This document shows, one piece after another, positions 21,318 to 26,207 of a stretch of DNA of 64,000 bases. The stretch's first letter is position 1, and every line of letters begins with the position of its first letter. This stretch comes from an uncultured SAR116 cluster alpha proteobacterium (lineage in GTDB: Bacteria > Pseudomonadota > Alphaproteobacteria > Puniceispirillales > GCA-002684695). Where the stretch lies: positions 1 through 64,000 of the forward strand of contig CACAIE010000006.1 in NCBI GenBank assembly GCA_902532475.1, read 5' to 3'. Made by a program: the position numbers and the translations under genes. The notes beneath the pieces are model-generated. The model saw only the letters and a program-made list of their open reading frames with translations. It searched no databases and was not told the DNA's origin.

Positions 21318-22595
21318 ATGTCTAAAAACATTGTTGTTTGTAGAAAATGTTTATTGAAATGGGAAGACAGTAAAATTCCATTAGAATGCCCACATTGTTT
21401 TTCTAAAAAATTAATTGGTCACAGAGAATTAAATGATTTAAACATTGCCCATTTGGACTGTGATTCCTTTTATGCATCAATAGAGAAAAGGGATAATAAG
21501 GAACTTGAAAAAAAACCAGTTGTAGTTGGAGGAAGTCAGAGAGGTGTCGTCGCAGCAGCCTGTTATGTATCAAGAAAATATGGAATTAGGTCTGCAATGC
21601 CAATATTTAAGGCAAAAAAACTATGCCCTGAAATAATTATAATTAGACCAAGAATGGAATATTATATAACAATTAGTCGCAAAATTAGATCGATTATGGA
21701 AACAATAACTCCTTTAATCCAACCCGTTTCTATTGATGAAGCGTTTCTTGATTTATCTGGAACAGAAAAACTCCACAAAAATATACCTGCGATTTCTTTA
21801 ATAAAATTGCAAAAAAGGATATTTAAAGATATTGGGATCACGGTATCAGTGGGGTTATCCTATAATAAATCTCTTGCAAAATTAGCTTCAGAACAAAAAA
21901 AACCCAATGGTTTTTTTGTGCTTGGCAGGGATGAAGCTAGTGATTGGCTTTCAAAAAAACCTATTTCAATTATTTATGGCCTTGGAACTTCCACAGTAAA
22001 AAAGTTGAACAATATTGGTGTATTTTTATGTAATGATCTTTTAAAATTTCCTTATTCTAAAATTGAAAAAATTTTAGGAGGAAATACTAATAAAATATTA
22101 AGTATAGCCTCTGGCATAGATGAAAGGCCTGTTGTCAAAGATACTGTTATTAAAAGTGTTTCTGTAGAGACAACTTTTACTAAAAGGTATAGTGAAAAAC
22201 AAATTAAAAATGAGCTTCATTTGTTATGTCAGAAACTATCCAATAGACTAAAAGACAAGAGCTTTTTAGGAAAAACGCTAACACTGAAACTAAAAACATC
22301 TAATTTTAAGACATTGACAAGAACCATCTCATCAAAAGAGCCATTTCAAATGGCTCACCATTTGTTTTCAAATTCTGAACAATTATTAGAAATAGAGTTA
22401 AAAAAAGAAATTGAATATAGGTTAATAGGAGTTGGAGTGTCTAATTTAATAAATGAAAATGAAAACAATCAAGGCTTTTACTTTAATGACCAGGTTGTTC
22501 AAAAGAAAAATAAACTGGAGAGAGCGTTAGATGATATTAATCAAAAAATAGGTTCAAATTCAACAAATATTGGCCGCCATTTTACTAATAATTAA
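21318..22595 (+). CDS. dinB: DNA polymerase IV with N-terminal zinc-ribbon-like extension
   Basis: IAHLDCDSFYASIEKRDN, VSIDEAFLDLSGTE, SVGLSYNKSLAKLASEQKKPNG; N-terminal CRKC...CPHC. Confidence 0.93.
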   Translation: MSKNIVVCRKCLLKWEDSKIPLECPHCFSKKLIGHRELNDLNIAHLDCDSFYASIEKRDNKELEKKPVVVGGSQRGVVAAACYVSRKYGIRSAMPIFKAKKLCPEIIIIRPRMEYYITISRKIRSIMETITPLIQPVSIDEAFLDLSGTEKLHKNIPAISLIKLQKRIFKDIGITVSVGLSYNKSLAKLASEQKKPNGFFVLGRDEASDWLSKKPISIIYGLGTSTVKKLNNIGVFLCNDLLKFPYSKIEKILGGNTNKILSIASGIDERPVVKDTVIKSVSVETTFTKRYSEKQIKNELHLLCQKLSNRLKDKSFLGKTLTLKLKTSNFKTLTRTISSKEPFQMAHHLFSNSEQLLEIELKKEIEYRLIGVGVSNLINENENNQGFYFNDQVVQKKNKLERALDDINQKIGSNSTNIGRHFTNN

Positions 22596-22652
22596 TTCAT
22601 GATATAATTAAAATGTTTTATTATTTATCTTAAACTTGAAGAGGTTTAAAAA

Positions 22653-22904
22653 ATGTCTGATCAAAAATGGAATAAAAATGCTCTTAATTATGGTGAAAAC
22701 AATCAAGAGAATTCTGCGGACGCATGGAACAAAAACGCTTTAAATTATGAAAATGAAAAGAGGGACACCAAAAAGAAATTAAAGAATGATCAAGTTGGTT
22801 CCAAAAATGATCAATGGAATAAGAATGCAAATGGATATGGATTAACTGAAAGTAAAAACAATCAAGATCCTTGGAATAAGAATGCTATGAATTATAAAAA
22901 ATAA
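22653..22904 (+). CDS. Small repeat protein with four WNKNAxNY motifs
   Basis: Four WNKNA[LNM][NG]Y units whose codons differ synonymously; SD-like GAAGAGG upstream. Confidence 0.8.
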   Translation: MSDQKWNKNALNYGENNQENSADAWNKNALNYENEKRDTKKKLKNDQVGSKNDQWNKNANGYGLTESKNNQDPWNKNAMNYKK

Positions 22905-22908
22905 TAAA

Positions 22909-23499
22909 TTAAAGACTTTTAAATTTCAAAAAATCATTTTTGTTGTCTATATCAAAATAAAATCCTTCTGATTTTGTATTAAATTTAACGAGGTTTTCTG
23001 AATTTTTATCTAGGATTTCTTTCCCACCTTTATCACCATTAAGAAAACACAATTGTTTGAAGTAATTCTTTCCAAAAATTACTGGGTTACCCGTTGTTTT
23101 TTTTCTATAAGGTGCAACGATTGTTGAACCTCCTCCATTTTGTTGATGGAAATCTATAATATCATTATAATCATTTGTCGCTAATAAAGGCATATCAGCC
23201 AAGCAAATCATTGCTGAAGAACTATTTTTAGGCAAGTTCAAAACACCTGCTGATATTGATGAACTTATTCCAGTCTCATAATTTTGATTATGAATTATAT
23301 CAACTTTAAACCCTTTTAAAATGTTGCAAATTTCTTTATGGTTTCGGCCTGTAACAATAATTACTTTTTTTGCTTTGGAATTAATAATTTCATTTACTGT
23401 ATGCAAGATCAGGGGTTTGTTATTTATCTCAGACAATAATTTATTTGATTTTCCATGTCTGGTAGATTTTCCCGCAGCCAAAACGATAGCGTCAGACAT
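22909..23499 (-). CDS. MobA/MocA-like nucleotidyltransferase (molybdenum cofactor cytidylyltransferase-like)
   Basis: IVLAAGKSTRHGKSNKLL, ICLADMPLL, GNPVIFGKNYF. Confidence 0.85.
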   Translation of the reverse strand: MSDAIVLAAGKSTRHGKSNKLLSEINNKPLILHTVNEIINSKAKKVIIVTGRNHKEICNILKGFKVDIIHNQNYETGISSSISAGVLNLPKNSSSAMICLADMPLLATNDYNDIIDFHQQNGGGSTIVAPYRKKTTGNPVIFGKNYFKQLCFLNGDKGGKEILDKNSENLVKFNTKSEGFYFDIDNKNDFLKFKSL

Positions 23500-25478: not shown

Positions 25479-26207
25479 TTAAATATTAATAACTATTGTT
25501 ATTAACGCAATCAATATTAACATTAACAGTGCTGCTTTTCTGAAATAACCACTGCCTGATTGATTAAAGTATTTTGCCCCAAGCCATGTGAAACCAATAT
25601 AGATTGGAAACGCAAAAGTACTAACAATTAGCAAGTTAAAAGTCATCATTCCATAAACAAACTGTGTCAGTGTTGTTAACAAAGACATGCAGCCCATAGT
25701 TATAATGATATTTGACCTCGTTACTTCGGCATCATCATTTCTTGCCATCAATACGGTTACAAAAGGTGGCCCTCCTACACCTGCAGCACCATTGACCAAT
25801 CCAGAAAAACCACCACCCATTATCATTGTCCAAATGTTAATCACGCCTTTTGGCTTCCATCCGCTGGCGAGTAATGCAACCATCAATATTACCATTACAG
25901 AAATAAAAATCTTAATAATCTCAGGTTCTAAAGACACGACAAAATAAAATCCAATAGGAATAGTAAATAGAAGGGCCAAAATCATAGGTAAGACAACCTT
26001 TACTTCCCCTTTCTTTAAAGCTGGTGGCATTAAATACAATACAGTTGGTACTTCAACCAAATACATTATTACTAAACCTACCGCTGGTGTAAGTATATTG
26101 GACAAAATTGGAACCATTAAAAGAGCAGCGCCAAAACCTAAAAAACCTCTTAAAAACCCACCAAGAGCGATCGCTACCGAACATCCAATCAGGCCTAAAA
26201 AAGACAC
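25479..26207 (-). CDS. TauE/SafE-family sulfite exporter-like membrane protein
   Basis: GGFLRGFLGFGAALLMVPIL; GGGFSGLVNGAAGVGGPPFV. Confidence 0.88.
   Translation of the reverse strand: MSFLGLIGCSVAIALGGFLRGFLGFGAALLMVPILSNILTPAVGLVIMYLVEVPTVLYLMPPALKKGEVKVVLPMILALLFTIPIGFYFVVSLEPEIIKIFISVMVILMVALLASGWKPKGVINIWTMIMGGGFSGLVNGAAGVGGPPFVTVLMARNDDAEVTRSNIIITMGCMSLLTTLTQFVYGMMTFNLLIVSTFAFPIYIGFTWLGAKYFNQSGSGYFRKAALLMLILIALITIVINI

Follow-up and report, generated by a model that had tools for sequence, protein, structure and literature searches.

A small SAR116 protein with four conserved WNKNAxxY motifs, a candidate multivalent docking protein

Introduction

Small proteins confined to one genus are often written off as spurious. 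One candidate for such dismissal lies in a 64,000-nucleotide stretch of DNA (the window) from an uncultured SAR116 cluster alphaproteobacterium, where a short open reading frame downstream of dinB encodes nearly the same tryptophan-led octapeptide four times. Is this frame a gene at all, is it the peptide or the nucleotide repeat that is kept, and what might a protein built around four copies of one motif do in the cell?

Results

The frame runs from 22653 to 22904 on the + strand and translates as MSDQKWNKNALNYGENNQENSADAWNKNALNYENEKRDTKKKLKNDQVGSKNDQWNKNANGYGLTESKNNQDPWNKNAMNYKK, an 83-aa product with polar, Asn-, Lys- and Asp-rich linkers, a pI of 9.3 and a GRAVY of -2.0. Translation and codon comparison place WNKNAxxY in it four times, all on the + strand, with the tryptophans at W6, W25, W55 and W74: motif 1 is WNKNALNY (residues 6-13; 22668..22691), motif 2 WNKNALNY (residues 25-32; 22725..22748), motif 3 WNKNANGY (residues 55-62; 22815..22838) and motif 4 WNKNAMNY (residues 74-81; 22872..22895). 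Motifs 2, 3 and 4 are preceded by D23, D53 and D72, respectively, and this Asp at W-2 is fixed in repeats 2-4 of all three lineages compared. An earlier note on this DNA, made from the letters and their translation, had given the same translation and four units exactly, and the synonymous codon differences it described from unit to unit are present in the sequence. The symmetry of the 19-30-19 motif spacing suggested duplication of a two-motif unit, but we rejected this because the flank similarity between the two halves is borderline only (shuffle p 0.04-0.07).

The note's author knew of no family with this motif, and sequence searches of Pfam, PHROGs, NCBIfam, PADLOC and PDB returned no family match either; the PADLOC result also led us to set aside a defence system, and the string WNKNA had no match in a paper search. 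Homologues, whose absence the note had named as the sign of a chance frame, do exist. Orthologues occur in 3 of 60 related genomes, all of the same SAR116 genus (E = 4e-20 to 4e-16), and the public records with an orthologue are SAR116-cluster AG-333-N20, CPC30 and AG-899-J15 (E = 2e-21 to 6e-18). The gene is thus carried by three of the four other congeneric genomes, with all four motifs kept. The orthologues have an aligned ATG start, are 83 aa each and align without gaps, and the 19-30-19 spacing is identical in all lineages, which is weak evidence, as neighbouring genes likewise have few or no internal gaps.

Outside the genus, no relative was found among 136 SAR116-order genomes or 385 genomes sampled across the class, nor in plasmids, phages or IMG/VR viral contigs, and a phage or plasmid origin was rejected on the latter result. 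A scan of 84,980 species gave matches confined to the genus, with patterns that require WNKN and near-identical preceding residues and that very diverged relatives could escape. Weak profile matches in SAR116 family f4 (G079, E = 0.001; G046, E = 0.2) fall in oxidoreductase-like and lytic-transglycosylase-like proteins that have no motif, and were discarded as chance. Outside the gene, the genus genomes contain four WNKNA-coding sites, each in a short frame with 21-44 aa between stops, so the motif was seen in no other protein. By these comparisons the gene belongs to a real, genus-restricted protein family with no described relative that we could find.

Three diverged lineages agree at all 24 fixed motif residues but at only 10 of the 58 other residues (Fisher p = 4e-13, a guide only, given that residues are non-independent), and 10 of the 20 non-Trp motif codons have changed synonymously. 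In each diverged pair, the 24 codons of the six fixed motif positions differ by 7-8 synonymous changes in ~12 synonymous sites and by no nonsynonymous one, which upholds the earlier proposal of selection on the peptide motif. In the linkers, dN is 0.65-1.05 against a dS of 0.8-1.7, values that are rough where dS is near or above 1; the linkers therefore come close to a dN/dS of about 1 among orthologues, which the note had taken as the mark of an unselected frame, and the motifs do not. The small gene as a whole has a dN/dS of 0.23-0.48; its neighbours dinB and the MobA-like gene downstream have 0.11-0.17 and 0.22-0.34, respectively. Synonymous sites in the motifs diverge as much as those in the linkers (motif ps 0.58-0.67 in diverged pairs), so the repeat is not conserved as a nucleotide sequence. 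The residue at position 6 is repeat-specific across species (L, L, N/S and M/I in repeats 1-4); since each repeat keeps its own variable residue, the four copies are older than the species split and have escaped homogenisation.

These patterns bear directly on whether the frame is a chance one, or a DNA or RNA repeat with incidental translation, as might be supposed in an AT-rich genome for a gene that has no relatives outside its genus. The motif amino acids are frozen while their codons change synonymously, frame and length are kept in all lineages, there is no Rfam match, and the leader and 3' region show no notable folding (z -1.4 to +1.0). We reject this explanation, to which we give almost no probability: the comparisons indicate a functional protein-coding gene, in which the selected feature is a peptide motif.

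The upstream neighbour is dinB, encoding DNA polymerase IV (21318..22595, + strand; NCBIfam equivalog PRK02794), which ends 57 nt before the small gene on the same strand. Downstream lies a convergent gene for a MobA-like NTP transferase (22909..23499, - strand), whose stop codon is 4 nt from that of the small gene, and next an XdhC-like gene. The orthologues sit likewise between dinB and the MobA-like gene, the gene order over ~10 kb around the locus is common to the orthologue-bearing genomes, and dinB and the small gene have the same order and strand in all four genomes with the small gene. The conserved position beside dinB that the note had proposed as a check holds within the genus but not beyond it: dinB is present in 56 of 136 SAR116-order genomes and the small gene in only 4, and in other SAR116 families with dinB no such gene lies downstream at the loci read. 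The dinB link is positional and within the genus only. The fifth congener, G004 (83% complete), is uninformative on the small gene, because dinB and the three downstream neighbours (MobA-like, XdhC-like and TauE-like) are absent from it too; the whole block may be missing through an assembly gap, and we did not use this genome as evidence of dinB linkage.

Three observations on the neighbourhood stand apart from the small gene. The XdhC-like orthologue of CPC30 (L070, G003:C7:36487-37485) contains one in-frame TAG, in a region whose record has ambiguous bases, and this may be a consensus error or mark a pseudogene. Opposite the TauE-like gene, an 86-aa antisense ORF (25687-25947, + strand) stays open in each of the three relatives at 78-83% identity, probably as a side effect of conservation of the sense gene. 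SAR116 family f4, several genomes of which are 90-95% complete, has none of the 56 dinB matches, while f1, f2 and f3 have dinB; DNA polymerase IV may have been lost in f4.

Within the gap between dinB and the small gene lies TGATATAAT (22600..22608, + strand), a perfect extended -10 element and candidate promoter of the small gene. TGnTATAAT is invariant in four genomes while the leader 3' of it varies through indels and substitutions; it is expected 6.6 times per window by chance in such AT-rich DNA, and the evidence lies in its conservation and place. A purine-rich, ribosome-binding-site-like GAAGAGGT (22638..22645, + strand), loosely kept in relatives, precedes the ATG at 22653. The invariant element suggests that the small gene has its own promoter, and as the element is conserved and well placed, separate transcription is at least as likely as co-transcription with dinB. 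The note had suggested co-transcription as a possibility, with which strand and adjacency agree. The surroundings of dinB and the small gene contain no LexA-type box (GAACN7GTTC or GTTCN7GTTC); LexA-type matches elsewhere in the window are off this pair and as numerous as chance predicts, and SOS regulation was rejected.

The orthologues have a pI of 9.0-9.8, a net charge of +3 to +10, a GRAVY of -1.7 to -2.0 and glycine contents of 4.8, 4.8 and 6.0%. On a charge-hydropathy plot they fall far on the disordered side (mean H 0.28-0.32, boundary 0.43-0.46), and AlphaFold gives no globular fold (mean pLDDT 50.5, pTM 0.10), so that the chain is predicted to be mostly disordered. The AlphaFold model has weak helical turns that overlap each motif (H8-11, H27-44, H59-62 and H73-80), of low confidence and based on three sequences; on a helical wheel, W (0 degrees), A (40 degrees) and Y (340 degrees) share one face, which supports a putative short inducible helix.

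Discussion

Frozen short motifs within a freely changing chain favour multivalent docking, and conserved motifs in a fast-evolving, predicted-disordered chain are what the multivalent short-linear-motif class displays. We give nearly an even chance to the reading of a disordered, multivalent protein that docks through its four short motifs on one kind of folded partner. It would be a small, cytosolic tether in which each D-x-W-N-K-N-A-x-x-Y unit serves as a recognition motif for a pocket of that partner, most likely in the form of a short helix that the Asp initiates and that has W, A and Y on one face; four copies on fast-evolving polar linkers could raise affinity by avidity or gather several partner molecules. 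Retention of all four copies in every lineage supports docking. Against a simple one-face helix, N2, K3 and N4 show the same invariance as W, A and Y; a further point against the docking reading is that position 6 is aliphatic in three repeats and polar (N/S) in the third. We propose more tentatively that WNKNAxxY is a previously undescribed recognition motif and the protein a scaffold dedicated to bringing together as many as four copies of a single partner. DinB is a candidate partner by position only.

The basic composition that accompanies this disorder would also suit a small nucleic-acid-binding protein, in which W and Y stack on bases, K and N contact the backbone or base edges, and the protein coats single-stranded DNA or RNA, possibly as a DinB helper in translesion synthesis or as an RNA chaperone. 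Four motifs of aromatic, Lys and Asn residues, the high pI and positive charge, and the constant adjacency of dinB all fit such a role. However, each motif offers one invariant Lys, and an invariant Asp stands before W, which leaves few positive charges, and net charge varies three-fold between orthologues. A partnership with DinB in particular sits poorly with the absence of such a protein from most dinB-bearing SAR116 genomes, with the apparent promoter of the small gene and with the lack of a LexA-type box, and we consider nucleic-acid binding unlikely.

Somewhat less probable again is stress protection by a hydrophilin or LEA-like protein, whose disordered, hydrophilic chain would shield other proteins under osmotic stress or freezing. 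The very low GRAVY, the N/K/D-rich composition and the presence of a consensus extended -10 element before a single small gene are as expected of one. Such proteins depend mainly on composition, though, and not on exactly frozen W/Y motifs, and no LEA or hydrophilin model in Pfam or NCBIfam matches. Hydrophilins combine high hydrophilicity with glycine above 6%, and the glycine contents here are at or below that threshold.

The look of frozen repeated cores between variable spacers is also that expected of a multi-core peptide precursor, in which each WNKN would be crosslinked from Trp to Asn and then cut out. Dynobactin, a radical-SAM crosslinked RiPP, is WNSNVHSYRF with a Trp1-Asn4 bond (PMC13067283), and its W1, N2, N4 and Y8 coincide with those of WNKNAxxY. 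The His6-Tyr8 pair of dynobactin is absent from WNKNAxxY, though, motif 1 begins at residue 6 with no leader peptide before it, and the immediate neighbours include neither a maturase nor an exporter. A search for SPASM domains was positive in 8 of 14 control genomes but found none in five genus genomes or in two further SAR116 genomes; the genomes searched are 61-88% complete, and absence from any single one is uncertain. Of ten representative radical-SAM proteins from the genus, nine were assigned to families without a known role in peptide crosslinking (MoaA, MiaB, HemW, MtaB, LipA, CofG, CofH, RlmN and a B12-type KedN5-like protein), and the tenth, L088, has no NCBIfam assignment at the strict cut-off of 1e-40. 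With no SPASM radical-SAM enzyme found in the genus and no leader peptide, a dynobactin-type precursor is very improbable. Two large radical-SAM proteins of the genus are at L099:580-2604 (- strand) and L088:787-2451 (+ strand), and L099 matches the B12-dependent KedN5 methyltransferase family with a score below the cut-off.

By analogy with the actin-binding repeats of cortactin/HS1, the four motifs might instead bind along a filament of MreB or another bacterial homologue of actin. The repeat region of cortactin, too, is disordered alone and binds along its filament (PMC5711941, PMC11102864), and one orthologue weakly matches the Pfam HS1 repeat over motif 2 (E = 0.44). That match is at chance level (11.4 bits, cut-off 27) and occurs in one of three members, and the repeat spacing is 19-30-19, not 37; filament binding seems to us highly doubtful.

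This protein bears an unusually clean signature: its linkers are nearly unconstrained, yet none of its 24 motif residues has changed, and this points to the motif as the working part. Discovery of a partner would show the way in which a lineage-specific, motif-only protein is integrated into the cells of a major ocean bacterial group, and if the scaffold proposal is true, that partner would reveal a lineage-specific assembly in this abundant uncultured marine group.

Each of the known systems closest to this protein resembles it in part. Among the dynobactin and darobactin core peptides, dynobactin shares the WNxNxxxY pattern (PMC13067283), but the SAR116 protein has no leader, no His6 and no adjoining exporter, packs four copies into 83 aa, and comes from a genus in which no SPASM maturase was found. 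Cortactin/HS1 (PF02218) has a disordered repeat region, and its profile matches motif 2 of one orthologue locally and weakly, but the score is at chance level, the repeat length differs and the ligand of cortactin is eukaryotic actin. With hydrophilins and LEA-like proteins it shares small size, strong hydrophilicity and 5-6% glycine, but it differs from them in its exactly conserved aromatic motifs and the absence of a profile match. We know of no short linear motif equal to WNKNAxxY, and this family is found in one bacterial genus only, unlike multivalent short-linear-motif proteins in general; what it has in common with them is its architecture, with several frozen short motifs set in a polar, fast-evolving, disorder-like chain.
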